64,000 nt of DNA from Zetaproteobacteria bacterium CG_4_9_14_3_um_filter_49_83. Lineage in GTDB: Bacteria > Pseudomonadota > Zetaproteobacteria > Mariprofundales > Mariprofundaceae. Within the stretch, counting starts at the first letter, position 1. Every line of letters starts with the position of its first letter. The notes beneath the pieces were generated by a model. That model was not told the DNA's origin, searched no databases, and saw only the letters and a list, made by a program, of their open reading frames with translations. The position numbers and the translations under genes were made by a program. Of the stretch, positions 1,586-45,752 are shown piece after piece. The DNA lies in NCBI GenBank assembly GCA_002791545.1, contig PFXG01000025.1, forward strand, positions 1-64,000, given 5' to 3'.

Positions 1586-2030
1586 GTGTGCCACGAAGTT
1601 TCATAAGAGATGAGAGTAGGTCTCTCGGAGTCTGCTTGCAGGAGCTGGCTTCAAACCGCCTTTGTGTTGCTGTGGTTAAGAGCCATGGTGATGAGCGACA
1701 AAGGAAAAGGGCAAGGTAAATTGCTCAGGAGTGATTCAGGGAGATGAACGCAAGTGAACCGTTCGATGAAGCGTCGAAACCCCTTAGACCCTGTCAAAAC
1801 CGAAGTTTGGTCTGTACGTCGGGATAAATTCGGAGGTAACCTGTTTACTGTCCGTTTGGCAGGCGGCGTTGAGGCGGCATGAACCTGAATCAGGCTCTTA
1901 TGGAGAACGTGGGAACCTGTCGTTCGGATGTTAAGGGAGAAAGTTGGAGCGGAAGCCCCGCGAGACTGAGCGTACCGATGCCGGACACAGGGGCGGAACA
2001 ACTCGCAGTAGTGTTGAAGCTTCCGCAGTC
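1586..2030 (+). mobile_element. group II intron 5' portion, no reverse transcriptase gene
   Basis: From the candidate 5' end GTGTG, about 440 bp carry blocks I recognise from the ribozyme part of bacterial group II introns: GTTCGATGAAGCGTCGAAAC, TTATGGAGAACGTGGGAACC, GGAGCGGAAGCCCCGCGAGA and ACAGGGGCGGAACAACTCGC. In intact elements the ribozyme domains I-III are followed by a long LtrA-type maturase/reverse transcriptase gene. Here the sequence diverges after about 2025 and no such ORF follows, so the element is a 5' remnant. Recognition is from memory of conserved blocks, not from a folded model, and the exact borders are uncertain. Confidence 0.6.
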
Positions 2031-4569: not shown

Positions 4570-5117
4570 GCCGCTGTCTCGAAACGGGGGAAACGCTCGG
4601 CAATATCGCTGCCGGTCGGCAGGCCAACCCATCCTTCAGCGATGCGGAAAAATCGAATGGCTTTGAAGTCAGGTTTTGCACCCATGTCAAACCAGTGCGG
4701 CGTTAATGCCGGAAGGTTGACTAAATCTCCTTTGTCGCAGCGCAACATGAAGACGTGCCCCACAGCGTGGATATAAAACATGCCCGAGCCATCAACAAAA
4801 TAGCGTGCCTCAAAATCATCATGGGTGTGTTCGCAGAGAAATTTCTTTCGTAATTCCTCTGCTTGCGGATGATCTGGGTGAATGGCCGCTACATCCACGG
4901 TGTGAAAGCCATGTTGGCGCTTGAGATCGTTGATGCTGCTTTGGTAAGCTGCAATAACTTCAGATTCATCCGCCTCAGCGGAAAGTGGTGCATCGGTCTG
5001 CCATTGTTCAAAGCCGATCCCCAATGCTTTCAATCGTTGGGCTATGGTGTCCGTGTCATTAAGAACTTCGACAGCGGAAAGAGCATTGTCTTCAGTAAAG
5101 ATGGTTAATTTATCCAT
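4566..5117 (-). CDS. mtnD: acireductone dioxygenase
   Basis: The 183-residue cupin protein cleaves acireductone with O2 to give 2-keto-4-methylthiobutyrate and formate (Fe form), the direct methionine precursor. The metal-binding motif HTHDDFEARYFVDGSG shows the two His and one Glu ligands typical of ARD, and HAVGHVFMLRCDKGDLV leads to the last region with TPHWFDMG. GGAGAAAATA precedes the start at 5117. It overlaps mtnB by one base and mtnC by four. Whether it uses Fe or Ni cannot be read from the sequence. Confidence 0.95.
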   Translation of the reverse strand: MDKLTIFTEDNALSAVEVLNDTDTIAQRLKALGIGFEQWQTDAPLSAEADESEVIAAYQSSINDLKRQHGFHTVDVAAIHPDHPQAEELRKKFLCEHTHDDFEARYFVDGSGMFYIHAVGHVFMLRCDKGDLVNLPALTPHWFDMGAKPDFKAIRFFRIAEGWVGLPTGSDIAERFPRFETAA

Positions 5118-5728
5118 TATTTTCTCCTGTCCAGCAGTTCGCATTCGAGCATGAATTCTATGGCCTCAACGCGCCAGCGTGCTTCGGCAATAGTGCTTCC
5201 CCAGGCATAAAGGCCATGACCGGCGATCAGGTAAGCCGCCATATTCGGTGTCTGCTGCAATTGAAGCGCAACCTGAGTCGCCAGTCGCGGAACATCTTGA
5301 TCGTTGGTCAGTACAGGGATTTCGTAATGCGCATCATGACTGGAGATGCCCGGCAAGACCTTGAGAACTTCATAACCATGCAGGTGAATGGAATCATGAT
5401 GGCTCGACAATACGGTGTTCGTTGGCGAGTGTGTATGAAATACTGCACCAATCTGATCAGAAAAACGGTAGAGCTGGCAGTGAAGCGCAGTTTCGTAGGA
5501 AGCTTTACGGCTTGCATCGAACGGACGGCCATCGAGGTCGGCAAGCAGAAGATGCTCACGGTTCAGTTCACCCTTGTGACAGCCGGAGGCGGTGATCAGC
5601 ATAGTGTTGGCATCAATAAGTGCTGAAAAATTTCCAGCAGTCGCCGGAACCCACTGCCGTTGATGAAATAATCTTCCTGCTTCTATCAACTGTTCGGCGG
5701 CATGGTCGATTGCTTCCTGTTTACTCAT
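5117..5728 (-). CDS. mtnB: methylthioribulose-1-phosphate dehydratase
   Basis: This class II aldolase-fold enzyme of 203 residues dehydrates 5-methylthioribulose 1-phosphate in methionine salvage. The zinc-site motif VFHTHSPTNTVLSS and a later AGHGLYAWG (third His) are present, along with ATAGNFSA near the N terminus, which binds phosphate. The ATG at 5728 follows GGAGGGGTG; a GTG one codon earlier would overlap the ribosome-binding site. It is the first gene of the operon. mtnA and mtnK/mtnP are not in the window, so the upper part of the pathway must lie elsewhere. Confidence 0.93.
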   Translation of the reverse strand: MSKQEAIDHAAEQLIEAGRLFHQRQWVPATAGNFSALIDANTMLITASGCHKGELNREHLLLADLDGRPFDASRKASYETALHCQLYRFSDQIGAVFHTHSPTNTVLSSHHDSIHLHGYEVLKVLPGISSHDAHYEIPVLTNDQDVPRLATQVALQLQQTPNMAAYLIAGHGLYAWGSTIAEARWRVEAIEFMLECELLDRRK

Positions 5729-5993
5729 CACCCCTCCGTGTCGTTTGCTTTCCAGCTAACAATGGAGGCTTCGTTTGCAGTCGTCAATTGAATGCGTGAA
5801 TCGCGCAACATCTTAAGGGCAAGCAGGGACACCGCTTGCGCGTCATAGGCTTACCGAAGAATTGAAGATGTATTGGCAAACGAAAGTTAGACAATCTTGA
5901 TGTATTCGAATAGCAAACAAAGAGAAAGATATCTGATTCTTTAATGCGTTGATTCGTCTTGCACTTCTGTGTGGTGACGCTACTTTCGCTGAA

Positions 5994-7229
5994 ATGAACC
6001 CGCTCCAGCCCATCTCTTTCAGATTGCCCCTGATAACGCTCGCTGTTGGCTGGCTGGCAGGCTGGTTTTCATATGTATGGCTGGATGATGCCGTGCTGCT
6101 TGAGCAGCAGGTGGTTGTGCCAGAATCACCAGCCCGAGTCGAAACATCTTATAGTCACCCTCAGTCACAACTGACGACTGAGCTTGTTGCGCCTGTCCCG
6201 GTAGTTAAAACCAATGCGAAGCTTCCTCAGGTACAAGCCCCGGTAGAGCCGGACGCCATGCAGCTATTTAATGCTCAGTTGAACAATCACCGTTTTGCCA
6301 GTGCGATGCATGATTACTGGCCCGTAGAAGCTGAACAGAAAGCCCGTGAGCATGTGATGGATATGCTTGCGTCACTGGAGCGGCAGGACGCTACGGAGCC
6401 AGCCAGCAGGCTTATGCAGGCGTATCGCAGTCGCTTTCCGGATGATTTGGCGGCTGGTCTGGTACAGGCCCGATTGTGGCATAAGCTCGGGCAGCTTGCT
6501 CAGGAAGCACTTCTGTTAATGGAATTGCGCCGAATGAGCGTTGATGCAAGCTTGCAAATGCAGCTGGATGAGCAGGTGAATAACGTTGTGCAACAGTATA
6601 AAGAGCAGCTTAAGGAATCCGAGCAGTACAGCCGACTTCTGGATTTCGCGCGTAAATTGAGCAATATCGATGGGGCAAATCCGGAGTTTCAATGGTTACA
6701 GGCGATGACCCTGGTTGAGATGGGGCAGCTGGAGCAGGCCAGAACGTTATTGGAGCCGCTTGTTTATGATCCGTCTGTTAGCACAAAGGCTGAGCGCCTA
6801 TTGCACCGCATAGATCAGATTGTTGACGCTGAATATACCATGAGTGTGCCTTTACAGCGCAGCGGAGATCATTTTCTCGTGCCGATATCGGTTAATGGCA
6901 GTGCACCGGTGTTACTTCTGCTGGATACCGGCGCGTCGATCACCCTGCTGGAACAGAGTCAGCTGCTCAGTCCGGGCAATACAGCAAAAGGAAATATTGA
7001 GCTGCAAACAGCCAATGGCGTCATGCGTGCAGCACTGCTGCCTTCCAATCGGGTGCGCCTGGGATCATTTGAACTGGAGAATGTTGATATTGCCCTGATC
7101 CGGCAGCCTATGTTTCCTACAGCGAAAGGTCTGCTTGGCATGAATATTCTCAAGCATTTCGATTTCTTTATCGATCAGGAAATTCCAGCACTCAAGCTCT
7201 CTCTGCGGGCTACAGGCAGTAAGCAGTAA
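5994..7229 (+). CDS. membrane-anchored retropepsin-like aspartic protease
   Basis: The 411-residue protein has an N-terminal membrane anchor (LPLITLAVGWLAGWFSYVWL, about residues 10-30). A Pro/Val-rich linker follows, then a helical, TPR-like middle, about 90-270. The C-terminal retropepsin-like domain, about 285-411, contains the catalytic motif LLLLDTGASITLLEQS and the downstream flap/hydrophobic motif AKGLLGMNILKHFDF. Single-domain aspartic proteases of this type (clan AA, related to TIGR02281 proteins) must dimerise. The domain is predicted to face the periplasm; no substrate is known. An upstream TTG in the same frame would add 15 residues, but the ATG at 5994 fits the membrane-anchor start better. 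The ribosome-binding site is poor. Confidence 0.75.
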   Translation: MNPLQPISFRLPLITLAVGWLAGWFSYVWLDDAVLLEQQVVVPESPARVETSYSHPQSQLTTELVAPVPVVKTNAKLPQVQAPVEPDAMQLFNAQLNNHRFASAMHDYWPVEAEQKAREHVMDMLASLERQDATEPASRLMQAYRSRFPDDLAAGLVQARLWHKLGQLAQEALLLMELRRMSVDASLQMQLDEQVNNVVQQYKEQLKESEQYSRLLDFARKLSNIDGANPEFQWLQAMTLVEMGQLEQARTLLEPLVYDPSVSTKAERLLHRIDQIVDAEYTMSVPLQRSGDHFLVPISVNGSAPVLLLLDTGASITLLEQSQLLSPGNTAKGNIELQTANGVMRAALLPSNRVRLGSFELENVDIALIRQPMFPTAKGLLGMNILKHFDFFIDQEIPALKLSLRATGSKQ

Positions 7230-7332
7230 TGTATGGGGCGTTCAAAATCTGAGAGGATTTTAATACGGGTGGTCACAATAAATAATAAGGCTTAGTGTGG
7301 ATGGGTGCGGAAAAGTGCATGGGGGGCATTAT

Positions 7333-8445
7333 ATGGAATCATTTCATTGGGATAAAAGTTACGTTACCGGATTGCCAACAGTTGATGATCAGCATCACCG
7401 TTTGGTAGAGCTTATCAATCAATTTGGAGATTTACTGGCAGATAATGCCGTTGAGTTTGATGATGTTGAGGTGTTATTTGGCGAGTTGGCCAGTTATGCC
7501 ATTTACCACTTTCAGGCCGAAGAGACGATGATGGCCGATATGGGTATCGACCTGCGTCACCGCGATCATCATATCAGTGAACATCAGGCTTTCCTGCAGG
7601 AAGTGATGGCCATGCATGCAGGTATGGCACCAGAGACGCTCAATACGGCTAGGCATTTGTTGTCGTTTCTCATCCACTGGCTTGCCTATCATATCCTCGG
7701 TTCGGATCAGGATATGGCCAGGCAGGTCGAGGCTATCAAACAGGGTAGTCAAGCTGAGGCGGCGTTTGATAAAATGGAGCGTGGACGCGATAGCGCCACT
7801 GAACCATTACTTATTGCGCTTAATGGCTTGTTTCAACAGGTCTCAGCACGAAACAGGGAATTGCTGCAACTGAATCAGTCGCTCGAAGAAAAAGTTACCG
7901 AAAGAACGAGGGAGCTCTCTGATGCCAATGATCGATTGAAAACATTAGCAAATACGGACGCCTTGACCGGATTGCCGAATCGTCGGCATGTGATGCACCG
8001 GTTGGCTGAATTGTGGCAAGAATCGGTGGAGAATCAAAAACCGGTCTGCTGCATGATGATCGATGCGGATCACTTCAAGGAAATTAATGATGCCTATGGT
8101 CATGATGCAGGCGATGTTGTGCTGCGGGAATTAGCCAAAACCCTGCAGTATGCAGTGCGGACGGATGATGTGGTGAGTCGTCTGGGCGGGGATGAGTTTA
8201 TGGTAGTCTGTGCGAACACAGATAAGGCCGGAGGCATGCTGGTTGCAGAACAAATTCGCCAATCCGTGTCGGTACTGCGAGTGTCCACTGCCGATGGTGG
8301 ATGCTGGCAAGGTAGCGTCAGCGTCGGTCTGGCGAGCCGGGATGCAGAAATGCAGAGTTACGAGAGTCTGCTCAAGGCCGCAGATAATGGCGTGTATGAA
8401 GCCAAGCGCGCAGGGAAAAATTGTGTGCGGGAAGGGGTAGAATAA
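7333..8445 (+). CDS. bacteriohemerythrin-GGDEF diguanylate cyclase
   Basis: Residues 1-130 form a bacteriohemerythrin domain with the di-iron ligand set: DDQHHRLVELIN, YHFQAEETMM, HRDHHISEHQAF and HWLAYHILGSDQDM. A coiled coil at about 170-205 links it to a C-terminal GGDEF domain with an intact active site SRLGGDEFMVV. An RxxD product-inhibition site (RTDD) lies exactly five residues before GGDEF. The protein is therefore likely an O2- or redox-responsive c-di-GMP synthase in the cytoplasm. The ATG at 7333 starts directly at the hemerythrin domain; a GTG 36 bp upstream is possible but adds no conserved sequence. Confidence 0.9.
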   Translation: MESFHWDKSYVTGLPTVDDQHHRLVELINQFGDLLADNAVEFDDVEVLFGELASYAIYHFQAEETMMADMGIDLRHRDHHISEHQAFLQEVMAMHAGMAPETLNTARHLLSFLIHWLAYHILGSDQDMARQVEAIKQGSQAEAAFDKMERGRDSATEPLLIALNGLFQQVSARNRELLQLNQSLEEKVTERTRELSDANDRLKTLANTDALTGLPNRRHVMHRLAELWQESVENQKPVCCMMIDADHFKEINDAYGHDAGDVVLRELAKTLQYAVRTDDVVSRLGGDEFMVVCANTDKAGGMLVAEQIRQSVSVLRVSTADGGCWQGSVSVGLASRDAEMQSYESLLKAADNGVYEAKRAGKNCVREGVE

Positions 8446-8471: not shown

Positions 8472-10466
8472 TCAGCTTGTGGGATTCAGGCCTGATATAA
8501 TCATTTTTTCGAACGCCTCGAAAATTTCCCCATCAAACCTGCCGTTGGCAACGTCAATATGCATTTCCTCCAGCGCGCTTTCCGGGTTCCAGCGATCTCG
8601 CCATGGCCTGTTTTCAGTCAGCGCCTCATAAACTTCAGCAATAGAAAGAATGCGGGCGATTTTTGAGATGGGTTTGTTTGATTTTCTTGATGGATAACCA
8701 TTGTTCGTTGGTGTTTGGTGGTGGTGGAGCACACACTCAAGGGTGGCTCTGTCATCGTAACCATGTCTGAGCATGATACGCACCGATTCTTCAGGGTGTC
8801 TTTGAATGGCAAGAATATCTTCACGTGTTAAAGCGGTGGCCTTGGTTAACACCGAATGCGAAACAATCTGATGACCGCAATTGTGTAAAAAGCCGGCGGT
8901 GACCAGTGCTTGCCGGTCGCTGGCACCGATATTCATTCTGTCAGCCAGCGCATAGGCCAGCAAGGTGGTTCTGGCGGCATGGCCTAACTGGCCGCTGATA
9001 ATTTCGGCTGGCCAGACCAGTTCAGACGGAATATTGCTTTGCTGAATAATGCGACCGAACTTATGTCGGATTTCTTCAGGGATGGCCGAAGATACTAGAA
9101 AATCACGCAGACCGATGACTTCGTACAGGATGAAGCCGCTGGTTCTTCCCTTAAGTTGAATCAGATCATTTTTTGTCTGCATTGAGGCTTCCGCAAAGCC
9201 GATTTTTGCTTCCTTGAGTTCGGGGTGAAGTCGCATGGCTTTAAGGAAGTAGGATTTGGCCTGATCAGAATCGCCATATTGCATCAGTTTATTGCCTAGC
9301 AGAACCAGTAGATCGATGTCCTCCGGCTTTCTGGTCGACTGCTGCATAAGCGAGTGGATGACGGACTCGATATCATTATCCCTGTCTTTTCGATTAACAT
9401 CATCGATGTGAAAGACCTTGGCTTCAATAAATGTGCTTGTCCGTTTGTAGGTCTCTTCATCGATCAGCAGGGAGCCCGGTGTGCATAGTGATTCAAGTCG
9501 TGAGGCAGTGTTGGCACAATTACCCATAACGGTATAGGTCTTTCTGCGTCCACCGATCATACCTACAACAGCATCGCCAGAAGTGATACCTAAGCGCATT
9601 TTCCATGGATAGGCAGAGCTGCGCATAAACTCCATCATGCGAATGCCACAAACTACGGCTTGCAGAGAATGATATTTGTAATCAATAGGCATGCCGAATT
9701 CCAGCATGTAGCCATCACCGGTGTATTTGTCGAGGTGAGCCGAATACGAGTCCATAAAGCCCGACATGTCTTTGAGGTACCGGTTGAGTTCCTGAATGAC
9801 AGATTCAGGCTGTTTGCCTTCCACATAAGGGGTGAAGTGATGCAGGTCTGAAACCAGCACTGCAATGTGCTTCTTTTCATTACGTAAGCGTTTCTCGATC
9901 AGCATTTGTGCCACAACAGGATCCATTGAGGTGTGCAGTACCTCTTCAACTCTGGCTTTGAGTTGCTCCACAATTTGTTTGCTTTCGGAGAGGTTGCGGG
10001 TTTTTTCCTCAACCATGGATTCAAGGTTTTCAGTATAATGTTTCAGTTCAGTGTTGGCTGTTTCAAGTTCAGTCTGTGACTGTTGGTATGCGAGGTTAAG
10101 GACTTCACTGGCTTTAATGCGTATGTCCAGATTCTCATACAATTTTCCAACCAGTGCGCCGGAAAGGATAAGAAAGCCGCCCCAAAGTGATAGTTGGAGG
10201 TAAATATGTTCTTTTTCAGGAACATACATGAAAGGCGTGGAGTCATATGCGGCATAGGCACAGACCATAACAATGCATAAAAACGCTCCGAGTACGGCAT
10301 AGCGAAGTCCGAGATAATAGCCAGCCATCAGAATGGGAATGAAAAAGAAATTAAGGAAAGCGAGCTTGAAAGGGGCTAAATAGTAAATGCCGACAACACT
10401 TAGTAAAACAAGCAAAACAAAGGCTTGCTCGAAATTCTTTAGTAGGTATTCCTTCATGGAGTTCAT
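8472..10466 (-). CDS. membrane class III nucleotide cyclase with degenerate HD-GYP domain
   Basis: The 664-residue protein has four or five N-terminal transmembrane segments (about residues 12-125) and a long coiled coil (about 130-190). A class III adenylate/guanylate cyclase domain spans about 210-370. Both metal aspartates are present (VSDLHHFT and KYTGDGYML), and GNCANTASRLE supplies the transition-state Asn and Arg. The position where adenylyl cyclases often carry Asp (GDxVN) is Asn here, so the nucleotide specificity is uncertain. A TPR-like helical stretch at about 395-450 is followed by an HD-GYP-like C terminus, 500-655. There the metal-binding HD is replaced (FLHNCGHQIVS) and the GYP loop is reduced to NNGYP, so phosphodiesterase activity is doubtful. 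GGGGAGAAA precedes the start. Confidence 0.85.
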   Translation of the reverse strand: MNSMKEYLLKNFEQAFVLLVLLSVVGIYYLAPFKLAFLNFFFIPILMAGYYLGLRYAVLGAFLCIVMVCAYAAYDSTPFMYVPEKEHIYLQLSLWGGFLILSGALVGKLYENLDIRIKASEVLNLAYQQSQTELETANTELKHYTENLESMVEEKTRNLSESKQIVEQLKARVEEVLHTSMDPVVAQMLIEKRLRNEKKHIAVLVSDLHHFTPYVEGKQPESVIQELNRYLKDMSGFMDSYSAHLDKYTGDGYMLEFGMPIDYKYHSLQAVVCGIRMMEFMRSSAYPWKMRLGITSGDAVVGMIGGRRKTYTVMGNCANTASRLESLCTPGSLLIDEETYKRTSTFIEAKVFHIDDVNRKDRDNDIESVIHSLMQQSTRKPEDIDLLVLLGNKLMQYGDSDQAKSYFLKAMRLHPELKEAKIGFAEASMQTKNDLIQLKGRTSGFILYEVIGLRDFLVSSAIPEEIRHKFGRIIQQSNIPSELVWPAEIISGQLGHAARTTLLAYALADRMNIGASDRQALVTAGFLHNCGHQIVSHSVLTKATALTREDILAIQRHPEESVRIMLRHGYDDRATLECVLHHHQTPTNNGYPSRKSNKPISKIARILSIAEVYEALTENRPWRDRWNPESALEEMHIDVANGRFDGEIFEAFEKMIISGLNPTS

Positions 10467-10838: not shown

Positions 10839-12095
10839 ATGAGCGAAAGCATTGTACGTGCGCTGAAATGTCGGGAATGTGGTCAGGAATACGCAATTGA
10901 ACCTACGCATGTTTGTGAGTTCTGCTTCGGTCCATTGGAAGTGGTTTATGATTATGACAAGTTGCAAGGTAAATTCACCCGTGAATTGATTGAGTCACGG
11001 CCGCAGACGATGTGGCGATATAAAGAGCTGTTGCCGATCGATGGCGAGCCGACCGTAGGCGTTCAGAACGGTTTTACGCCGCTGGTGAGAGCGAAGAATC
11101 TTGAGAAAGTGCTGGGTGTCAAAGAGCTGTATATCAAGAACGATTCTGTTTGTTATCCGACGTTGTCATTTAAAGATCGTGTCGTTTCTGTGGCGCTTTC
11201 CAAAGCCGTGGAGTTTGGCTTTAAAACCGTGGCATGTGCTTCAACCGGCAATCTGGCGGGCTCAGTGGCGGCCAATGCGGCAGCGGCCGGTTTGGAATCT
11301 TATGTGTTTATCCCGCACGATCTTGAGCAGGGCAAAGTGCTCGGCGCAGGTATTTTCGGCACTAAAATCATCGGTATCAAAGGTAAATATGACGATGTAA
11401 ACCGTTTATGCTCGGAAGTGGCTGGCAAATACGGCTGGGCTTTTGTGAATGTGAATGTTCGACCGTTTTACGCAGAAGGTTCCAAATCACTGGGTTATGA
11501 AATGATGGAACAACTGGGCTGGCGAGCGCCCAAGCATGTGGTTGTACCCATGGCTTCCGGTTCGTTGTGTACCAAAGTGGATAAATCGATCAAGGAATTT
11601 ATCAAGCTTGGCCTGATTGAGGATAACGGCACGGCAGTTTATGGTGCTCAGGCGACCGGTTGTTCGCCGATTTCAAAATCGGTTAAGGATGGTACGGATC
11701 TGATTCATCCGGTGCATGCCGACACTATCGCTAAATCACTGGCGATCGGAAATCCTGCGGACGGTTACTACGCCAATCGTGTCATTAAAGAATCCGGTGG
11801 CTGGGCCGAAGATGTGTCGGATCAGGAAGTGGTCGATGCCATGAAGCTGCTGGCCGAAACAGAGGGAATATTTGCTGAAACCGCTGGTGGTGTTACATTG
11901 GGCTGTGCCATGAAAATGATTGAAAGTGGCCGGCTGCCTCGCGATGAATCCATTGTGCTGTGCATTACAGGCAACGGGCTGAAAACGCAGGAGGCCATTA
12001 TTGATGCAATTGCCAAGCCACGTATCATTGATGCAAACCTGAAAGAATTTGATGCCCTGGCAGAAGCTGACGGTGTCGCAACAACTGATAAATAA
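10839..12095 (+). CDS. thrC: threonine synthase, PLP-dependent (possible homocysteine synthase role)
   Basis: The 418-residue fold-type II PLP enzyme carries an N-terminal zinc ribbon (CRECG and CEFCF, about residues 11-31), typical of one threonine synthase branch. The PLP lysine is in PTLSFKDRVV, and ACASTGNLAGSVAANAAAAG is the phosphate-binding loop region. The family converts O-phosphohomoserine to threonine. The start at 10839 has GGAG nine bases upstream. It is the first gene behind a SAM riboswitch and is followed by a sulfur carrier, a NIL domain and a cysteine synthase. That context would suit a gamma-replacement with sulfur to give homocysteine, but this is inference; the sequence itself looks like ordinary threonine synthase. 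Confidence 0.85.
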   Translation: MSESIVRALKCRECGQEYAIEPTHVCEFCFGPLEVVYDYDKLQGKFTRELIESRPQTMWRYKELLPIDGEPTVGVQNGFTPLVRAKNLEKVLGVKELYIKNDSVCYPTLSFKDRVVSVALSKAVEFGFKTVACASTGNLAGSVAANAAAAGLESYVFIPHDLEQGKVLGAGIFGTKIIGIKGKYDDVNRLCSEVAGKYGWAFVNVNVRPFYAEGSKSLGYEMMEQLGWRAPKHVVVPMASGSLCTKVDKSIKEFIKLGLIEDNGTAVYGAQATGCSPISKSVKDGTDLIHPVHADTIAKSLAIGNPADGYYANRVIKESGGWAEDVSDQEVVDAMKLLAETEGIFAETAGGVTLGCAMKMIESGRLPRDESIVLCITGNGLKTQEAIIDAIAKPRIIDANLKEFDALAEADGVATTDK

Positions 12096-12457: not shown

Positions 12458-12697
12458 ATGAAATTAAGAGTTTATTTGACATTCGATGAGGCGACAGTGC
12501 GTGAGCCGATCATCTGGAAGTTAGCAAAAGAATTTGATGTCATTACCAATATCCGCACCGCTGAAGTGAAAAATAATATGGGGCTGGTTGGTCTTGAAAT
12601 TGAAGGGGCCGACGATGTGGTGGAGCAGGCGATAATCTGGCTGGGACAGCAGGGCGTGCACGTTGAGCCCATAGAACAAAATGTAATTGAAGGCTGA
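12458..12697 (+). CDS. stand-alone NIL domain protein
   Basis: The entire 79-residue protein is one NIL domain: MKLRVYLTF, then [17 protein letters not shown], and [16 protein letters not shown] domains are known as the methionine-binding regulatory tail of the MetN transporter ATPase, and as a partner of ferredoxin domains in a homocysteine-forming system with COG1900. A free-standing copy inside a SAM-riboswitch cluster suggests a methionine sensor or a sulfur-transfer scaffold. TAGGAG lies ahead of the start. No function has been shown for this form as far as I know. Confidence 0.8.
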
Positions 12698-12707
12698 GGA
12701 GTCGGAA

Positions 12708-13640
12708 ATGGCAATATTCAATAATGCAGCTGAGGCGATTGGTAACACCCCACTGGTGCGCCTGAATAAAGTAAGCGAAGGATTAAAAGCTGAAGTGGTT
12801 GCGAAGCTTGAGTTTTTTAATCCGCTGAATTCGGTGAAGGATCGAATCGGTAAAGCGATGATAGAAGCGGCAGAAGCGGATGGTCGTTTGCAGCCGGGTG
12901 GTGTGATTGTCGAGCCGACCTCGGGCAATACCGGTATCGCATTGGCCTTTGTGGCACGAGCCAAGGGTTACCGTTGTATTCTGACGATGCCTGAGTCAAT
13001 GAGTCTGGAACGTCGCAAGCTGTTGAAGCTGTTGGGTGCCGAGCTGGTGCTGACCCCGGCTGAGCTGGGCATGAAGGGGGCGATTCAAAAGGCCATCGAG
13101 ATTACAGCCAGCATGGATGGCGCTGTTATGCCGCAGCAATTCGAGAATCCGGCCAATCCGGAAATTCATCGCAAAACCACGGCTGAAGAAATATGGCGAG
13201 ATACCGATGGTCAGGTTGATGCAATTGTCGCTGGTGTTGGTACCGGTGGCACGATTAGCGGTGTCTCGGAAGTGCTGAAACAACGCAACCCATCATTTAA
13301 AGCTTTTGCGGTTGAGCCGGCAGATTCGCCGGTGATTTCAGGCGGCTCTCCCGGCCCGCATAAAATTCAGGGCATCGGTGCTGGTTTTATCCCGAAAAAC
13401 CTGAATGTTGATATTCTTGACGGCGTCGAAAAAGTCTCCAATGAAGATGCCATTGCCATGGCTCGCCGTTTGTCCTCCGAAGAAGGAATTCCCGGTGGTA
13501 TTTCATCAGGTGCTGCTGTTGTGGCAGCGCTGCGCGTGGCTGCACGGCCGGATATGGAAGGCAAGCGTATTGTCGTCATTCTTCCATCTATGGCTGAGCG
13601 CTATATGTCGACCGATCTGTTTAAAGGTATCGAAGTATAA
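12708..13640 (+). CDS. cysteine synthase (O-acetylserine or O-phosphoserine sulfhydrylase)
   Basis: The 310-residue fold-type II PLP enzyme has the signature [12 protein letters not shown] and the PLP lysine in [33 protein letters not shown] is the substrate loop, and [16 protein letters not shown] binds the PLP phosphate. It forms cysteine from an activated serine and sulfide, or from a protein thiocarboxylate in the CysM/CysO case. The active-site residues that separate CysK from CysM cannot be assigned by eye. GAGGAG precedes the ATG at 12708. It follows the NIL gene by 10 bp, within the same operon. Confidence 0.9.
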
Positions 13641-13746: not shown

Positions 13747-14568
13747 ATGATTGATTTTACAGAAGAGCAAATTGAGCGCTACTCGCGCCATATCATTTTG
13801 CCGGAAGTTGGCGCCGAGGGACAAAGCAAGCTGCTTGAGTCCAAAGTGTTCATGATTGGTGCCGGTGGGTTAGGTTCACCCGTGGCCTATTATCTGGCTG
13901 CGGCCGGTGTAGGCACGATTGGTATTGCCGATGCAGATGTGGTGGATATGTCTAACCTGCAGCGTCAGATCATCCATAATCAGGACCGCATCGGTATGCC
14001 GAAGGTGGAGAGTGCACGTGAGACCATGCAGGCACTCAACCCTGATGTGAAGGTGAATACCTACAACTATTTTATTACCGAAGATAACGTGCGCGAGATT
14101 ATCCGTGACTACGATCTGATCATTGATGGCTGCGACAATTTCCCAACCCGATTCCTGGTTAATGATGCCTGTTATTTCGAGAAGAAGCCGTTGATTTCCG
14201 GTGCTATGTTCCGTTTTGAAGGGCAGGTCGCAACATTTAAACCGCATCAGCAAAAAGGAGCACCTTGCTACCGTTGTCTGTATCCGGAACCACCACCGGC
14301 AGGCCTGGTGCCGTCCTGTTCTGAAGCCGGTATTCTGGGCGCATTGGCTGGTGCTGTTGGCACCATCCAGGCAGTAGAGGCGGTGAAAGAGTTGCTGGGT
14401 ATCGGCGATTCATTGGCCGGTAAGTTGATGGTATTCGATGCTTTGCGCATGGAATGGAAGAAGCTGAAGTTGCATAAAGATCCTGCATGTCCGCTGTGCG
14501 GTGAGAATCCGACAATTACCGATCTGAGCACTTACGAGCAGGCCTGCGAACTGAAGTTCGGCGAATAA
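13747..14568 (+). CDS. moeB: MoeB/ThiF-family E1-like adenylyltransferase
   Basis: The 273-residue enzyme adenylates the C terminus of a MoaD/ThiS-type carrier. Visible are the N-terminal RYSRHIILPEVG, the ATP-binding GAGGLGSPVAYYLAAAGVG, and the catalytic-cysteine segment LVPSCSEAGILGA. Two CxxC zinc pairs are present (CYRC and CPLC). There is no C-terminal rhodanese domain, so sulfur must come from another donor, such as the TusA domain encoded next. It is flanked on both sides by copies of one palindromic repeat. The name moeB reflects family membership; here the natural partner is probably the carrier at 12116-12394. Confidence 0.88.
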   Translation: MIDFTEEQIERYSRHIILPEVGAEGQSKLLESKVFMIGAGGLGSPVAYYLAAAGVGTIGIADADVVDMSNLQRQIIHNQDRIGMPKVESARETMQALNPDVKVNTYNYFITEDNVREIIRDYDLIIDGCDNFPTRFLVNDACYFEKKPLISGAMFRFEGQVATFKPHQQKGAPCYRCLYPEPPPAGLVPSCSEAGILGALAGAVGTIQAVEAVKELLGIGDSLAGKLMVFDALRMEWKKLKLHKDPACPLCGENPTITDLSTYEQACELKFGE

Positions 14569-14572
14569 AGAT

Positions 14573-14661
14573 TTAACCACAAAGGCACCGGGGCACAAAG
14601 TAACGCTATCAGAATTTGCGTTTCTTTGAGTCTCTGTATCTTGGTGGTTGCCAGAGGTTAA
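14573..14661. repeat. TTAACCAC/GTGGTT palindromic intergenic element, copy 2
   Basis: TTAACCACAAAGGCACCGGG followed by GCACAAAG is related to the first part of the element at 13645-13730. The right end has TCTCTGTATCTTGGTGGTTG and AGAGGTTAA. It fills the gap between moeB and the sulfite reductase gene. Confidence 0.7.
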
Positions 14662-14663
14662 AT

Positions 14664-17006
14664 ATGACGGATTTTAATTTTACGCGTACATCTGATGTGG
14701 ATGAGTTTGATGCCGGGTTCAAGGCCTTCAGGGCAGGTACGATGTCTGAGGAACGGTTTACGCCATTTCGTTTGCAGATGGGCGTTTACGGTCAGAGGCA
14801 AGAGGGCGTGCAGATGGTGCGCGTCAAGTTGCCTGGCGGTAACCTGACACCGGAGCAGTTGGATGTGATTGGTGATTGCGTAGCTGATTATGCCGGACGT
14901 ATACCAACCGATGGCTCACTGACCGAGGCTCCGGAGAAATTTGCTCACGTGACGACGCGTCAGGATATTCAGACAAATTTTGTGAATCTGGATGATGTGC
15001 CGGCATTTTTGCGACGGCTCGATGCGGTTGGCCTGACAACGCGCGAAGCCTGCGGTAATACCATACGTAATGTGACGACATGTTTTCTGGCCGGCTCCTG
15101 CCCGGCTGAATATGCCGATGTGTCTGTGCACGCACGCCGCTTTGCCGAGTATTTTTTGCGCCACCCGCTGGCGCAGCAATTCCCGCGCAAGTTTAAAGTG
15201 AACTTTTCCGGCTGCGCGACGGATTGTGGTTTGGGCGGCATGCACGACATTGGTTTTATTGCCACCGAGCAGGACGGCGTCAAAGGTTTTAAAGTCTGGG
15301 CTGCCGGAGGTTTGTCTTCTCAACCGATGAGCGCTTTGCTGCTGGAAGAATTTATTGAAGAGTCGCAGATATTGCTGGTTGGCGAAGCATTGATGCGGAT
15401 GCATTTCAAATATTCTGATCGCAAGCGTCGTGCCCGTGCCCGTTTGAAATATGTGGCACAGAAACTGGGTGCGGAAGGTTTTATTGAGGAATATAAAAAG
15501 CAGCGCGCGGTGATTGAGAAACCCCATGCGCATGATGCCGGCTATCCGCAAGCTAACTGGCGCTCACCGACGGCGGCGATGCCACACGCCGATTCCGGTG
15601 TCGTGGATCAGCACAATGGCCAGAAAGCGATTATGCTGAATCTGTTCCGTGGTGATTTGACACCGGCGCAGTGCCATGCCGTGGCCGATGCGGCGCGCGC
15701 CGCAGGAACGCAAGCTTTGCGCGTGACGGCAGAGCAGGGCGTAATTATTGTTGATGTGGCTGGCGATAAGGTGGATGCAGCGCTGAAAGTGCTGAATGAA
15801 GCCGGACTATCGAGCGAATATGCACGTGGTATTGCTGATGTGGTGGCATGTCCGGGAACCGAAACATGCCGTCTGGGGATTACCTCCAGTCGCGGTCTGG
15901 CCGAAGCCCTGCAACCGCTGATGATCGATTTGAAAAAGGATGCCACGCTGGCCGGAATTACCGTCAAGGCTTCAGGTTGCCAGCACTCATGCGGCCGTCA
16001 CCATATTGCGGATCTCGGCTTCCATGGCATGGCCAAGAAAGTGGCAGGTCAGGCAGTGCCGCATTATCAGTTGCACATTGGTGGTTCTGGTGCGGGTGGT
16101 TCGCCGCTGGCCTTTGCATGCGATCCGGTACCGGCAAAATATGCGCCGCAGGCGGGAATTGCTGTGCTGGAGGCTTATAAGTCCGGCCGTAACGGGGCGG
16201 AGTCGGTACACGACTGGGCATCACGCATGGGGCAGGATGGCATTTCAACTATTCTGGCACCTTTTGCGGCGGATGCCGGTGAAGTGGAAGGTTTGATTTA
16301 CGACTGGAGTGAAAACGAGGCATTCAACACCAAAGGCAACAAGAAGGGCGAATGTGCGGGCGCAGTGCTGTCGATGTCTGATGCACTGATCTCCGAGGCT
16401 GAATACGAATTACTGCTGGCGCGTGCGCATACTGATGCGATGTTCTGGGCAGAGGCAGCCACAGCCTTGCGCCGCTCAGCTATTTCCACTGCCCGTGCTT
16501 TTCTGGTGGCCTATGGTGAAGCACCGGAAGACGATGTGCAGGTGTTTGGATCACTGGCCGTGAATGCTGCGACAGATCAGGACGTGATATCAGGCTTTCA
16601 GTCCGTGCAAACGGCGCTGATGAGTATCGATCTGGCCGATCCGGGTGCCGGCGTGACGAAGTTGAAAGAGTTGCAGGGTCAATGGCTGGCGCTGGCTGAA
16701 AAACGCTTTGCAGCGGTGCCAGCCCAAGCACCGCTTGCGAAACATGAAGAAGCTGCAAGTCCTGCAGCTTCAGATGTGGTGTTGCTGGATTTGTCCGGGG
16801 TGGCCTGTCCGATGAATTTCGTTAAAACGAAAATTAAACTGACTACGATGCCGGTCGGTGCTTTGCTGGACGTCATTCTTGATGACGGCGCACCGATTGA
16901 AAATGTACCACTGTCATTGGAAGAGCAAGGTCAGAAGGTGCACCTGAAGGAACGTATTTCTGATGCTCAGTGGAAGATAAGAGTCGAAAAAGTCGGAACG
17001 ATTTGA
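14664..17006 (+). CDS. siroheme sulfite (nitrite/sulfite) reductase fused to a TusA domain
   Basis: The 780-residue protein begins with two ferredoxin-half/siroheme modules. Each half shows the cysteine pattern for a siroheme-coupled [4Fe-4S] cluster: CFLAGSC with GCATDC in the first, CPGTETC with GCQHSC in the second. A helical region follows (about 570-690). The C-terminal 70 residues form a TusA/SirA domain (DLSGVACPMNFVKTKIKL) with the persulfide-carrying Cys of the CPxx motif. The reductase reduces sulfite to sulfide with six electrons, here presumably from ferredoxin since no CysJ flavoprotein gene is near. The fused TusA could accept the product as persulfide. The start at 14664 lies right behind the repeat element and has a weak ribosome-binding site (AGAGG). 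Confidence 0.88.
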   Translation: MTDFNFTRTSDVDEFDAGFKAFRAGTMSEERFTPFRLQMGVYGQRQEGVQMVRVKLPGGNLTPEQLDVIGDCVADYAGRIPTDGSLTEAPEKFAHVTTRQDIQTNFVNLDDVPAFLRRLDAVGLTTREACGNTIRNVTTCFLAGSCPAEYADVSVHARRFAEYFLRHPLAQQFPRKFKVNFSGCATDCGLGGMHDIGFIATEQDGVKGFKVWAAGGLSSQPMSALLLEEFIEESQILLVGEALMRMHFKYSDRKRRARARLKYVAQKLGAEGFIEEYKKQRAVIEKPHAHDAGYPQANWRSPTAAMPHADSGVVDQHNGQKAIMLNLFRGDLTPAQCHAVADAARAAGTQALRVTAEQGVIIVDVAGDKVDAALKVLNEAGLSSEYARGIADVVACPGTETCRLGITSSRGLAEALQPLMIDLKKDATLAGITVKASGCQHSCGRHHIADLGFHGMAKKVAGQAVPHYQLHIGGSGAGGSPLAFACDPVPAKYAPQAGIAVLEAYKSGRNGAESVHDWASRMGQDGISTILAPFAADAGEVEGLIYDWSENEAFNTKGNKKGECAGAVLSMSDALISEAEYELLLARAHTDAMFWAEAATALRRSAISTARAFLVAYGEAPEDDVQVFGSLAVNAATDQDVISGFQSVQTALMSIDLADPGAGVTKLKELQGQWLALAEKRFAAVPAQAPLAKHEEAASPAASDVVLLDLSGVACPMNFVKTKIKLTTMPVGALLDVILDDGAPIENVPLSLEEQGQKVHLKERISDAQWKIRVEKVGTI

Positions 17007-17023: not shown

Positions 17024-19663
17024 ATGATGACATCTGAATCAGCATTCTCCAATGCGGGTCGCACCAAGCTGGCTCTGGTCAGCCATGGTGTTTCGTTGCC
17101 TGAAGGGTTGCCTGAGTCATCACGCTGGCTTGCACAGGTCAATGGTGTTGAAACGGTCATCGATATGCGCTTGCCAACCGGTCAGTTTTGTACGGTTCCG
17201 GTGGGGCAGCCTTATACGGAAAAGAGTGTATATTCACTGCGCTTCAGTGACGGAAAGCCACAACTGTGTTGCGGGGATGAAGTTTCAGATGTCAGCCTGA
17301 TTGAAGTTCCCGCTTTTTACCGGAAAAAAACCCGCAATGGTTCGCGCATGGGCAGTTTTGCTTCCCTGCATGACCGTCTGCTGATTTTACAGCCCTGGCA
17401 GGGATGCGGTTTTTTTGCCGGCGAAGGTTTTGCCTGTCATTACTGTCAGTTTGACTCGATGGTCAACGATGACAGCCCGCCATTACGTGACCCGCTGGAG
17501 CTTGTCGAAGTTGTGCTGGAAGTGTTGAAAGAGCGCACGATTGATACCGTGTATCTGTATAACGGCCATTCGCCGGGCGATGATGTCGGTCTGAAACAGC
17601 TTGTGCCGGTAATTGCATTACTCAGGCGGCATTTGGGCACACGGCAAATTGCCCTGGAGACAATTGCTCCCGCCGATGTTGGTGTCATTGACTCACTGTA
17701 TGCCGCCGGACTGGATGTCTTTGTCTGTAACCTTGAGCTGGCGGATGAAGAGCGCTTTAGCACATTGTGTCCCGGCAAACATGCGCTGGGCGGACAACAG
17801 GCTGTCATTCGGGCTTTGCAACATGCGACGCAGGTGTTTCGTCGTGGAGCCGTGGTGAGTAATCTGATTGTTGGATTAGAGCCGATCGAGTCGAGCGTGC
17901 GGGGTATGAAATTGCTGGTTGATATGGGGGTGGTTCCGATGGTTTCCGGCTTCCGTCCTCTGCCGGATACACCGTTGAAGGATCATCCTCTGCCGAGTTT
18001 TGATGAGATTGAGCAGGTCTTGCTGGCGCAATATGAGTTGCTGGAAAGTACGCAAATCCCGACCCATCGCCTGCGTGGTATGGGGCGTGTGCTGACGCCG
18101 ATGGAGAGTCGGGTTCTCGATGGTTCTGAGACCGCTCTTGAACAACAGTGGAGTGAACATTCATGGGTGCAGCGTAGCCATGTGTGGCTGGATCATTTCC
18201 GCCGCGCCATACGCATGCGTAAATACGATGATGACGCACAGAATATCGACAGAAGGGCATTTTCAGTGGCGCTGGCAGATATGGCGCTGCCGTATGTTGC
18301 GATGTTGGTGCTGGCACTGGCTACGATAATCGCCTGTTCAATGGATGCACCGGCAGGACTCTCTGAGTCAGGCTGGCGGGCCATTATTGTGTTTGTGCTA
18401 TGTCTGGTGTTGTGGGTGACCCAGCTGTTGCCATTATCGATCACCTCGTTGCTGGGGATGGCATTGTTACCCATGCTGGGCGTACTTTCGGCGACACACG
18501 TATTTGCCTTATTCGGCAATCCGGCTGTGTTTTTTATTCTGGGTGCGTTCATGTTAACAGCGGGTGTGATGCGAAGCGGGCTATCGACGCAATTTGCTCT
18601 GGCCGTGATGGCAAGGACCTGTTCAAACTCCAGACATTTGTTGCTGGCCATGCTGGGCTTGCCCGCTTTGATGGCGTGTATGATGCCTGAACATGCTGTT
18701 TCAGCCTTGTTTCTGCCGCTGGCGATGGAGCTTGTTGCTGTGCTCGGCTTACGGCGACATCACCCCTACGCGCAGGCTATATTTTTTGCTCTGGCCTGGG
18801 GCGCCATTATTGGCGGTGTGATGACTTTGCTGGGGGGCGCGCGAGGGCCTCTTGCGTTGGCTTTGAGTAGCGAATTGACGGGCAAAACATTTTCATTTCT
18901 GCAATGGACGCTGGCGGCGTTCCCTGTGGTGATCGCTGAATTGCTGCTGGCTGCCTGGCTGTTGCTCAGGATGGTTGGGAAAGTCGAGCTGAATATGGAT
19001 AAGGTGAGCGCAAACATTCGTGAGAAGCAGTTGCAGACAGGCGCGATGGGCTTGCGTTCATGGGCCATGGCGGTGCTGGTTATAATCACTGTTATCAGCT
19101 GGATGGTGGCCGGGCACGCTTCGATGCTGGCCAGTATTGCGTTGGTGAGTGTTGTGGTGATGTTTGCCTTACGTTTGGTGGATTGGGCTGATATTGAAAG
19201 ACATGTTAACTGGGGTGTTATCCTGATGTATGGCGGGGCGATTGCGATTGGTAAGTCGCTCTCGGATACAGGGGCTGCGCTGTGGCTGGCGGAATCATTA
19301 ATTCCCGGTGATCTGCTTGGCCTGGGGCTTATTGCATTGCTAATTCTGGTAACACTGCTGTTTACCGAAGGTATGAGTAATGCCGCTGCGGTGGCCGTGG
19401 TTTTACCGATTGCGATTCCGATCGGCATACATGCCGGATTTAATCCGGTTCCGGTGGCTTTGCTGATTGGTATTATGGCGGGATTTGCCTTTATGTTACC
19501 GATGAGTACACCACCCAATGCGATGATATTCGGCAGTGGCTATGTTACTGCCGGGACCATGTTGCGCTATGGCATGGTGTTATCGATAAGCTCGTTTGTT
19601 TTAATGATGGCTGCGGTGAAATGGTGGTGGCCATTGATCGGTATGTCGATGGGGGTTGGCTGA
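17024..19663 (+). CDS. radical SAM domain fused to an SLC13/DASS anion transporter
   Basis: The 879-residue protein has two unlike parts. The N-terminal part, about 1-400, is a radical SAM enzyme. Its cluster motif has Cys128, Cys138 and Cys141, that is CX9CX2C instead of the usual CX3CX2C, followed by barrel strands such as TVYLYNGHSPGDD and VVSNLIVGLEPI. The C-terminal part, about 420-879, has around eleven membrane segments and matches SLC13 (DASS/NadC) carriers. The family signature region near MLPMSTPPNAMIFGSGYV is clear, and an earlier PEHAVSALFLPL corresponds to the first repeat. It likely imports sulfate or a related anion. The stop overlaps the cysH start by one base, tying it to sulfate assimilation. 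What the radical SAM domain modifies is unknown. Confidence 0.85.
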   Translation: MMTSESAFSNAGRTKLALVSHGVSLPEGLPESSRWLAQVNGVETVIDMRLPTGQFCTVPVGQPYTEKSVYSLRFSDGKPQLCCGDEVSDVSLIEVPAFYRKKTRNGSRMGSFASLHDRLLILQPWQGCGFFAGEGFACHYCQFDSMVNDDSPPLRDPLELVEVVLEVLKERTIDTVYLYNGHSPGDDVGLKQLVPVIALLRRHLGTRQIALETIAPADVGVIDSLYAAGLDVFVCNLELADEERFSTLCPGKHALGGQQAVIRALQHATQVFRRGAVVSNLIVGLEPIESSVRGMKLLVDMGVVPMVSGFRPLPDTPLKDHPLPSFDEIEQVLLAQYELLESTQIPTHRLRGMGRVLTPMESRVLDGSETALEQQWSEHSWVQRSHVWLDHFRRAIRMRKYDDDAQNIDRRAFSVALADMALPYVAMLVLALATIIACSMDAPAGLSESGWRAIIVFVLCLVLWVTQLLPLSITSLLGMALLPMLGVLSATHVFALFGNPAVFFILGAFMLTAGVMRSGLSTQFALAVMARTCSNSRHLLLAMLGLPALMACMMPEHAVSALFLPLAMELVAVLGLRRHHPYAQAIFFALAWGAIIGGVMTLLGGARGPLALALSSELTGKTFSFLQWTLAAFPVVIAELLLAAWLLLRMVGKVELNMDKVSANIREKQLQTGAMGLRSWAMAVLVIITVISWMVAGHASMLASIALVSVVVMFALRLVDWADIERHVNWGVILMYGGAIAIGKSLSDTGAALWLAESLIPGDLLGLGLIALLILVTLLFTEGMSNAAAVAVVLPIAIPIGIHAGFNPVPVALLIGIMAGFAFMLPMSTPPNAMIFGSGYVTAGTMLRYGMVLSISSFVLMMAAVKWWWPLIGMSMGVG

Positions 19664-20385
19664 TGAAGCCTTTGGTTGAGAGCGCGCTGGCTATGTTGCG
19701 ACAGGCTAAGCAGAAGCATGGCGATAAAATTGTCTATGCCTGCAGCATGGGGCTGCAGGGCATGGTTCTGATTGATCTGATCGCCAAGCATGAACTGGGC
19801 ATTCGGGTGGTTACCTTGGATACCGGCCGTTTGCCACAGCAAACATATGACCTCATTGACGTGATTCGTAAGCGTTATCATATCGAGCTTGATGTTCGCT
19901 TTCCTGATGCTGAGGAAGTACAGGATATGGTGCGTGAGCGGGGTGTTAATCTGTTTCTGGAAAGTGTTGAAAACAGGAAACTGTGCTGTGCGATTCGGAA
20001 AATTCATCCGCTCGACAAAGCACTTGATGGCATGGAAGCCTGGATAACCGGACGCCGCCGGGATGAGTCAGTCAACCGGGAAAGTATGCAGGCGATTGAA
20101 GTGGACCCGGTTTATGGGCGAATTAAATATAATCCGATGGCAAACTGGTCTGCCCACGATGTGTGGAAATACATTCGAGAGCATGATTTGCCATACAATA
20201 GTCTGTATAATGCGCACTACGCTTCGATTGGTTGTGCATGTTGTACGCGAGCGATCACCGTCGGGGAAGATCCCCGGGCAGGTCGTTGGTGGTGGGAAAA
20301 TGAAGAAACGCTGGCAGAGTGCGGGCTTCACGTTTCAAGTATCATCCGTTCGCAGGTAGAAGGCGAACTCGGAGAAGGAATTTAG
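19663..20385 (+). CDS. cysH: adenylylsulfate (APS) reductase, [4Fe-4S] type
   Basis: This 240-residue enzyme reduces APS to sulfite and AMP using thioredoxin or a similar thiol. The PP-loop is [15 protein letters not shown]. The iron-sulfur ligands typical of the APS-specific branch are present: a CC pair in [13 protein letters not shown] and a CxxC in [10 protein letters not shown] (here with an extra Cys at the third position). ECGLH near the C terminus carries the catalytic Cys. The PAPS-specific branch lacks the cluster. The absence of cysC in the cluster fits direct APS use. Translation is coupled to the upstream fusion gene (TGATG overlap). Confidence 0.92.
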
Positions 20386-20398
20386 GAGTAAAATAAAT

Positions 20399-21307
20399 AT
20401 GTCCAAGCATAAGTTAACACAATTGCAGGCATTGGAAGCCGAGTCTATCCACATCATTCGTGAAGTTGTGGCAGAATTTCGTAATCCGGTGATGCTGTAT
20501 TCAGTCGGTAAGGATTCCAGTGTGCTGGTTCATCTGGCACGTAAGGCGTTTTATCCGGCACCATTACCATTTCCACTGCTGCATGTGGATACCGGTTTCA
20601 AGTTCAAGGAAATGTATGAATTCCGCGACGCGTTCTGTGAAGAGATCGGTGCCAACCTGATTATTCGCAGAAATGAAGATGCCATTGCCAAGGGCATGAA
20701 TCCGAAAGAGTTCGGTGTGGCCCGCTGCTGTGGTGCGTTGAAAACGCAGGGTCTTTTAGATGCCTTGGAAGAGGGTGGTTACGATGCGGCATTTGGCGGC
20801 GCACGCCGTGATGAAGAGCGCAGCCGTGCCAAAGAGCGCGTGTTTTCGATGCGTGATGAGTTTGGCCAGTGGGATCCGAAAAATCAGCGTCCTGAATTAT
20901 GGGATATCTATAACGGCCGCATTCATGAAGGCGAATCGGTTCGCGTCTTCCCGATTTCCAACTGGACTGAAATGGATATCTGGGCCTATATCCGGGATGA
21001 AAATATTCCGATTGTGCCGTTGTATTTTGCCAAAGAGCGTCCCATGGTTGAGCGTGGTTCAATGTTGATTCCGTACTATGAAGAGAGTAAAGATCAATTG
21101 CTGGAAGGTGAAGAGCCGGTGATGGTGATGTCCCGATTCCGTACTCTGGGTTGCAGCCCGTGTACTGGCGCAGTTCGTTCAGATGCTACCAACATGGATG
21201 AAATTGTCATTGAAGCCGCAGCGGCCCGCCGTTCGGAACGTGAAACACGTATCATCGATCATGGTGCCAATTCGATGGAAGATAAGAAGAAGGAAGGTTA
21301 CTTCTAA
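20399..21307 (+). CDS. cysD: sulfate adenylyltransferase subunit 2
   Basis: The 302-residue PP-loop subunit forms APS from sulfate and ATP, in complex with the CysN GTPase. The N-terminal [19 protein letters not shown], the PP-loop [18 protein letters not shown], and the distal [16 protein letters not shown] with RERETRIID-like tail are all family hallmarks. Length is normal. GGAG stands before the ATG. The stop codon overlaps the cysN start. Confidence 0.97.
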
Positions 21308-22587
21308 TGAGCGAATTTAATTTTGAACTGACAAAAGAAATTGAACTGCTGCGTCTGGTTACCGTGGGCAGTGTGGATGATGGAAAATCGACGCTTATCG
21401 GTCGTCTGCTGGTCGATACCAAGGGCGCATTTGAGGATCAGCTGCTGGCGGTGCACAAGAAAAAAGGTGCGACGCATACTTCATCGGCGGCCGAAATTGA
21501 TTTGGCCATGCTGACAGATGGTTTGTCGGCAGAACGCGAGCAGGGCATCACCATTGATGTGGCTTACCGTTATTTTGCAACGCCGAAGCGTAAATTTATC
21601 ATGGCGGATTGCCCCGGTCATGAGCAGTACACCCGTAATATGGTGACCGGTGCATCAACGGCCAGTGCAGCAATTATTCTGATTGACGCCCGTAATGGTG
21701 TGATGCCGCAAACCAAACGCCACACACATATTCTCGGACTTTTGGGTATTCCGCATCTGATTGTTGCCATTAACAAGATGGATATGGTGAATTTCGATCA
21801 GGCGACATTCGAGAAAATCAAAGCTGACATGCAGGCATATTGTGCCAAGCAGGGTGTTAAAGACTTGATCTGCATTCCGATGTCAGCGCTGGAAGGCGAT
21901 ATGGTGGCCGTGCGCGGTGACAATATGAACTGGTATGAAGGCAAATCATTGCTTGATACGCTTGAATCATTGTCCGTGCTGGATGATATTGATGAGAAAC
22001 CATTCCGCATGCCGGTACAGTTGGTGAATCGTCCGCAAACGGCAGAGCTGCCTGATTATCGTGGTTTCATGGGTACGATCGCTTCCGGCACCGTGAAAGT
22101 GGGAGATGAGATTACCGTTCTGGCAAGTGGTAAAACGTCTAAAGTAGAATCGATTGTTGCATTCGATGGTAATCTGCAAGAAGCATTTTCACCACAGAGT
22201 GTGACGATTACACTGGCTGATGAGATTGATATATCCCGTGGGGACATGCTGGTGCATACCGGTTGTGGTTTAACGGCGCAAAAGGATATTACAGCTCGCA
22301 TTTGCTGGATTGGTGATGAGCCTTTGTCGGTGCGTAAGAAATATCTCATCAAACACACGACCAATACGCTGAAGGCCATGGTGGCTGAGATTGATTATCG
22401 CACCAATATTCATTCGCTGGAAAAAGAGTCTGCGGACGAGCTGGCTATGAATGATATCGGACAGGTACAGCTGAAGTTGATGAAACCGATGTATGCTGAT
22501 TCATACCTGAAAAACAGAGCAACAGGCAGTTTCATTGTTATTGATACCTTTACCAACAATACCGTTGGTGCAGGAATGATTGTTTAA
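21307..22587 (+). CDS. cysN: sulfate adenylyltransferase subunit 1 (GTPase)
   Basis: The 426-residue GTPase drives APS synthesis by CysD. The G motifs are clear: GSVDDGKSTLIGRLL (G1), ITIDVAYRYF (G2), DCPGHEQY (G3) and NKMD (G4). EF-Tu-like beta-barrel domains follow. The length shows that no CysC (APS kinase) domain is fused, unlike CysNC proteins. It is the last gene of the sulfur cluster. Its TAA stop overlaps the phoR stop on the other strand by four bases, so there is no room for a terminator between the two operons. Confidence 0.96.
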   Translation: MSEFNFELTKEIELLRLVTVGSVDDGKSTLIGRLLVDTKGAFEDQLLAVHKKKGATHTSSAAEIDLAMLTDGLSAEREQGITIDVAYRYFATPKRKFIMADCPGHEQYTRNMVTGASTASAAIILIDARNGVMPQTKRHTHILGLLGIPHLIVAINKMDMVNFDQATFEKIKADMQAYCAKQGVKDLICIPMSALEGDMVAVRGDNMNWYEGKSLLDTLESLSVLDDIDEKPFRMPVQLVNRPQTAELPDYRGFMGTIASGTVKVGDEITVLASGKTSKVESIVAFDGNLQEAFSPQSVTITLADEIDISRGDMLVHTGCGLTAQKDITARICWIGDEPLSVRKKYLIKHTTNTLKAMVAEIDYRTNIHSLEKESADELAMNDIGQVQLKLMKPMYADSYLKNRATGSFIVIDTFTNNTVGAGMIV

Positions 22588-45483: not shown

Positions 45484-45752
45484 TGTATGACTCCTCACAG
45501 GAGCTGCCCGTCAGCAATGAACGGGTAGCTGTTTTCGCGTTTGATCACGTAGCTGCAATAAGCTCACCAATTCGCAAGAGTCAGGGAAAACAGTAAAAAA
45601 ACAGGCGCAAGGCCGTCTGGTTTTAAACCTGTTTAGCTCTTTCTTTTACGTGGCGGCAAGCTGGTGCAAATGACCACGGCGGCGAACGGTAGAGGGAGAT
45701 TCATGGCTGTCAAGAATTTCGCATGCCAGAAGCATGGACCGGTTCTCGATAT

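Follow-up and report, generated by a model that had tools for sequence, protein, structure and literature searches.

A radical SAM domain fused to a DASS-type anion carrier in the sulfate assimilation operon of Mariprofundales

The 64,000-nucleotide stretch of DNA analyzed here, the window, includes an ORF at 17024–19663 on the plus strand that encodes 879 residues and has no internal stop in translation. Residues ~1–366 comprise a radical SAM domain, and residues ~413–875 a complete DASS/SLC13 carrier. The ORF is a genuine two-domain fusion that is conserved in the order Mariprofundales of the Zetaproteobacteria, which are marine iron oxidizers. It is apparently an undescribed domain architecture made from two known families, as the literature searched yielded no account of a secondary anion carrier with a radical SAM enzyme attached. 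The fusion is the normal state across the whole order and sits in a core metabolic operon; hence, it is not the product of an odd genome. The explanation we favor, with a little better than even confidence, is that an active radical SAM enzyme serving sulfur assimilation is tethered to an importer of an anion, probably sulfate.

The first-pass annotation of this DNA proposed that a single ORF joins a radical SAM domain to a full SLC13/DASS carrier, and profiles and predicted folds agree on this point. The radical SAM half (17024–18232, plus strand; residues 1–403, i.e., the core and then a linker helix) is assigned by the NF045502 "variant_rSAM" model, an AlphaFold2 model and Foldseek. The NF045502 match at residues 60–340 is well above the cut-off (164.1 versus 125 bits), and Radical_SAM PF04055 at residues 136–285 is just above its own (33.7 versus 29.5 bits). 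The carrier half (18233–19663, plus strand), whose first transmembrane helix starts at residue ~413, is assigned by TIGR00785, by VcINDY and by Foldseek. Its DASS TIGR00785 match spans residues 442–869 (257.2 bits, cut-off 198.6), and Na_sulph_symp gives 188.6 bits.

The first-pass claim that the ORF is unbroken between its parts stands, and most genomes of the order carry the fusion too. Among 41 Mariprofundales genomes, 29 have the fusion over near-full length, six (G001, G002, G005, G010, G012 and G029) have adjacent radical SAM and DASS ORFs, five have the locus cut at contig ends, and the remaining genome, 57% complete, has no match. The 64 loci of a named scan are titled almost entirely as Zetaproteobacteria (Mariprofundus, Ghiorsea and Mariprofundaceae), two being titled only as proteobacteria. 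Near-full-length fused ORFs are found at 47 of these loci, split genes at seven, and a frameshift in the carrier at one more. Strong radical SAM matches among 399 Pseudomonadota genomes are confined to Mariprofundales (74 genomes), where, contig-end cases aside, they co-occur with strong carrier matches. This contig survey was one scan with close-relative patterns, and variant_rSAM proteins of other phyla are outside its scope. The 29 fused genomes and 47 fused named loci, together with the dN/dS values given below, rule out a chance, frameshifted or assembly-artefact ORF. A phage origin was rejected, there being no relative among viral contigs, as was a plasmid origin: among the matches listed, plasmids give only remote MSMEG_0568-type proteins of <30% identity.

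The split genes keep the order of the fusion. Stop and start codons overlap as TGATG in L084 and L107 and as ATGA in L109, and most of the others lie bases apart. The overlapping cases look like true gene boundaries rather than sequencing errors. A tree that included both fused and split forms had too distant an outgroup to decide which state is ancestral.

The radical SAM half was modeled with AlphaFold2 from a 48-row alignment (pLDDT 85.4, pTM 0.86). The model has six strand–helix units, with strands at residues 119–122, 175–179, 208–213, 232–235, 277–283 and 304–309. That is, it is a partial TIM barrel of the radical SAM type, with Cys128, Cys138 and Cys141 located directly after the first strand, as the first-pass annotation had anticipated. 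Foldseek searches against the PDB place HydE, human lipoyl synthase, PylB and biotin synthase (BioB) at the top and also give ThiH, and all 50 matches listed are radical SAM enzymes or radical SAM-type proteins. HydE, lipoyl synthase, PylB and BioB share the predicted fold at 14–19% identity, and a PDB sequence search with the radical SAM profile gave chance matches only. For the full fusion, a model from a 43-row alignment of fusions has a mean pLDDT of 83; its pTM of 0.58 is too low for reading how the halves are placed relative to each other.

The [4Fe-4S] cluster motif, Cys128-X9-Cys138-X2-Cys141, is encoded at 17405–17446 (plus strand). None of its three cysteines varies in any relative whose sequence covers the region, in line with the conservation expected by the first-pass annotation. 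Other invariant residues are C235, N236, E238, C249, G251, K252, G256, G257, R351, G354 and R355. Near-identical pairs give a dN/dS of 0.04–0.18 for the radical SAM half, similar to the carrier half; these are simple Nei-Gojobori estimates, with silent sites close to saturation in several pairs. The radical SAM half is under strong purifying selection and has a radical SAM fold with an invariant cluster triad. A decayed domain is ruled out by the triad and the dN/dS range.

The CX9CX2C spacing had been flagged as unlike the usual CX3CX2C, which is found in LipS1, LipS2 and most radical SAM enzymes (PMC9585515). The spacing is indeed present in the fusion, but it is not peculiar to it. The MSMEG_0568-type homologues examined, standalone proteins of the Nit1C nitrilase cluster, read C-IRYESRRKA-C-KF-C and similar, so that the spacing is a subfamily trait and no novelty. 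The search for homologues with and without the transporter part, proposed with the first-pass annotation, found fused relatives in Mariprofundales and standalone remote homologues elsewhere. Remote radical SAM matches were found in 16 genomes outside Mariprofundales; 11 of them were examined, and all 11 are standalone proteins, 360–436 residues long.

Besides the spacing, the MSMEG_0568 proteins examined have an xPGK segment in common with the fusion and can be aligned to it over an N-terminal region. Three homologues of this type were scanned, and all are above the TIGR04043 and NF045502 cut-offs; in contrast, the fusion passes NF045502, a COG2516-like model, but falls below TIGR04043 (96 versus 303.7 bits). 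The MSMEG_0568 proteins also have a C-terminal CGxCGAC that the fusion lacks, whereas the fusion has the invariant C235 and C249 and a carrier half. Nit1C genes adjoin the remote homologue in L147; at the fusion, the Nit1C context (nitrilase, GNAT, MSMEG_0572) is absent and the neighbors are cys genes. The positions of C235 and C249 change together, being Met-Met in MSMEG_0568-type homologues and Ile-Ile in homologue L153, which has CX3CX2C. The L153 protein (6542–7621, minus strand) lies beside three proteins with no NCBIfam match at E ≤ 1e-10. A 2005 study related the Nit1C radical SAM genes to COG2516 "biotin synthase-related" enzymes; it had no experimental evidence for a role of the cluster and assigned no reaction to it (PMC1199592). 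The fusion locus provides a defined neighborhood for finding the reaction of a member of this poorly understood variant_rSAM family, and the architecture is of interest because that reaction awaits assignment and is testable.

With lipoyl synthase and biotin synthase among the nearest folds, the radical SAM half might make or repair a sulfur-containing cofactor through biotin- or lipoyl-like C–S bond formation, the fusion to DASS serving only for co-expression. In keeping with this, the operon supplies sulfide and a TusA domain, and MSMEG_0568-type homologues match the LipS2 lipoyl synthase model at 42–50 bits, though below its cut-off of 270. At E ≤ 0.01, however, the window protein does not match LipS2. 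Apart from C235 and C249, the fusion also has no invariant cysteine set of the kind an auxiliary cluster needs, nor does it have the C-terminal CGxCGAC, and the genome has a separate bioB. We consider a cofactor role quite improbable. In the narrower matter of BioB, the BioB model TIGR00433 gives no match to the window protein at E ≤ 0.01, the cluster spacing is CX9CX2C instead of the CX3CX2C of BioB, and a true bioB is present elsewhere in this genome (G000:C77; 412.8 bits, cut-off 225). A separate bioB in this and nearly all relative genomes rules out the fusion as a BioB replacement.

The carrier half matches VcINDY at E=3e-40, and Foldseek against the PDB gives NaDC3, NaCT, VcINDY and NaS1, with a TM-score by target of up to 0.86. 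It has the DASS fold and is above the family cut-off, but it is a variant of that fold. Na+-coupled DASS symporters have two SNT motifs, which make up the Na+ and substrate sites. In the alignment to VcINDY, the first is replaced by E556-H557-A558 (18689–18697, plus strand) and the second by S785-N786-A787 (19376–19384, plus strand). E556 and H557 are invariant in relatives, and the Glu-His-Ala motif may reflect a different substrate or coupling ion. VcINDY, NaCT, NaDC3 and NaS1 also differ from the fusion in having no N-terminal radical SAM domain.

The fusion draws attention to this Glu-His variant of the DASS site. EHT/EHA-type carriers of other Pseudomonadota (L187–L195) and of L051 have the Glu-His motif and a GGAR segment in common with the fusion, but their ORFs lack a radical SAM domain. 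None of the cys genes searched for lies beside the examined carriers of this type, except at L051. In L187 and L192, translations read by eye show a Glu-His-Thr DASS gene, then a universal-stress-protein-like ORF and, further on, a SulP-like ORF. The L051 locus has thrC, cysK, moeB, cysH, a sir-like gene and a sat-type sulfate adenylyltransferase together with an EHA-type DASS that is 36% identical to the window carrier in one comparison and 40% in another. A radical SAM search of the L051 genome gave no match. This suggests either that the carrier was in a sulfur operon before the radical SAM part joined it, or that the radical SAM part was lost in the L051 lineage. Directly behind the L051 carrier is a lipoate-protein-ligase-like gene (8669–9718).

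The window operon has the order thrC-cysK-moeB-sir/TusA-rSAM~DASS-cysH-cysD-cysN, on the plus strand, under a SAM riboswitch. The riboswitch (RF00162, 10606–10723) scores 69.6 bits in cmscan, with a gathering score of 44.4. The first gene is the threonine-synthase-like thrC (10839–12095; TIGR00260, 261 bits); its start codon was inferred, since the riboswitch falls inside the ORF as listed (10539). Next are cysK, cysteine synthase A (12687–13640; TIGR01139, 457.7 bits, cut-off 351), a moeB/thiF-type E1-like adenylyltransferase gene (13747–14568; PF00899, NF004281) and sir, of the sulfite/nitrite reductase type (14616–17006; PF01077 twice, PF03460 twice and PF01206). The duplicated NIR_SIR halves and the C-terminal TusA sulfurtransferase domain of sir are kept in the operons of relatives. 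Downstream of the fusion are cysH, APS/PAPS reductase (19663–20385; NF002537, 261.9 bits), and the sulfate adenylyltransferase subunit genes cysD (20399–21307; TIGR02039, 449 bits) and cysN (21307–22587; TIGR02034, 549.7 bits).

The description of this region as a SAM-regulated sulfate cluster is supported by the riboswitch, which is found upstream of thrC in all eight relatives scanned as well as in the window. The proposed coupling to cysH stands for the window, where the fusion's TGA stop (19661–19663) overlaps the cysH ATG (19663–19665) as TGATG, but it is not general. Among the 54 named loci whose sequence extends far enough downstream, cysH directly follows DASS in 39 and does not in 15; among the exceptions opened, L067 runs straight into cysD-cysN, and L106 is an operon end. 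On the upstream side, sir directly precedes the fusion or the radical SAM gene in 54 of 55 named loci. At L099, a 379-residue ORF (4848–5987) with no NCBIfam match at E ≤ 1e-20 lies between sir and the fusion.

The sir–fusion gene order is also what would be expected if the carrier imported an organic sulfur anion, e.g., a sulfonate, and the radical SAM half cleaved or rearranged it to give sulfite for sir. Organic anions are often moved by DASS carriers, as seen in the PDB relatives, and the departure from the SNT motif is consistent with such a substrate. Nevertheless, the window operon is already a complete sulfate-to-cysteine route, and seawater is rich in sulfate. The L051 EHA-type carrier, found with sat, cysH and sir but no radical SAM gene, fits sulfate too. 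This reading is unlikely.

In the reading we favor, that of an enzyme tethered to a probable sulfate importer, the cargo of the carrier would be sulfate, or an oxyanion close to it, to feed cysDN-cysH-sir, as the gene neighbors suggest. The cytoplasmic radical SAM half, judging from its conservation and fold, would be an active enzyme. It is predicted to bind a [4Fe-4S] cluster and SAM and to make a 5′-deoxyadenosyl radical, and its target would be a small molecule or a partner within this sulfur pathway. Whether as one polypeptide or as neighboring genes with coupled translation, the arrangement would yield enzyme and carrier in equal amounts and side by side. The radical SAM half is probably an accessory enzyme that was added on, rather than a component on which transport depends, since a related carrier sits in the similar L051 operon without a radical SAM gene; the standalone state of the remote homologues also favors an accessory nature.

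The riboswitch at the operon head raises a further possibility. The radical SAM half might be a cytoplasmic sensor in which binding of SAM, the end product, and the state of the Fe-S cluster or of C235/C249 control the uptake of the anion, alongside the riboswitch acting on the mRNA. In the model, the N-terminal domain and its short linker helix to the carrier would offer a plausible regulatory site, and the pair C235 and C249 is invariant in the fusion but changes jointly elsewhere. If true, such protein-level feedback on sulfate uptake beside an mRNA riboswitch would amount to a novel mode of transporter control. We nonetheless regard a sensor as rather unlikely: seven named loci encode the halves as separate proteins, invariance extends to many residues that SAM binding would not be expected to require, the known relatives are standalone, and no precedent was found in the literature searched. 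The first-pass annotation had proposed such SAM or redox gating, or else modification of the transported anion or of a partner protein; these are options among several, so far without direct support, and the split genes and the L051 carrier weigh against a strictly required gate.

Other candidates for sulfate uptake were sought in Mariprofundales genomes. SulP-family genes are found in 16 of 16 genomes tested, and an SLT-type permease in one of the 16, this genome. A search for CysT gave none above the cut-off. The SLT-type permease (43714–45498, minus strand), a CitMHS protein with two TrkA_C domains, lies behind a SAM-alpha riboswitch (45612–45687, minus strand) and is a second SAM-controlled candidate sulfate permease. 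With SulP in every genome tested and the SLT-type permease in this one, the bulk of sulfate import need not fall to the fused DASS, and the SulP genes leave the proposal that it is the sole importer unsupported. Elsewhere in the window, a group II intron D1–D4 match was found at 1612–1730 (plus strand), near a gene for a Fic-domain protein at 2696–3748 (plus strand).
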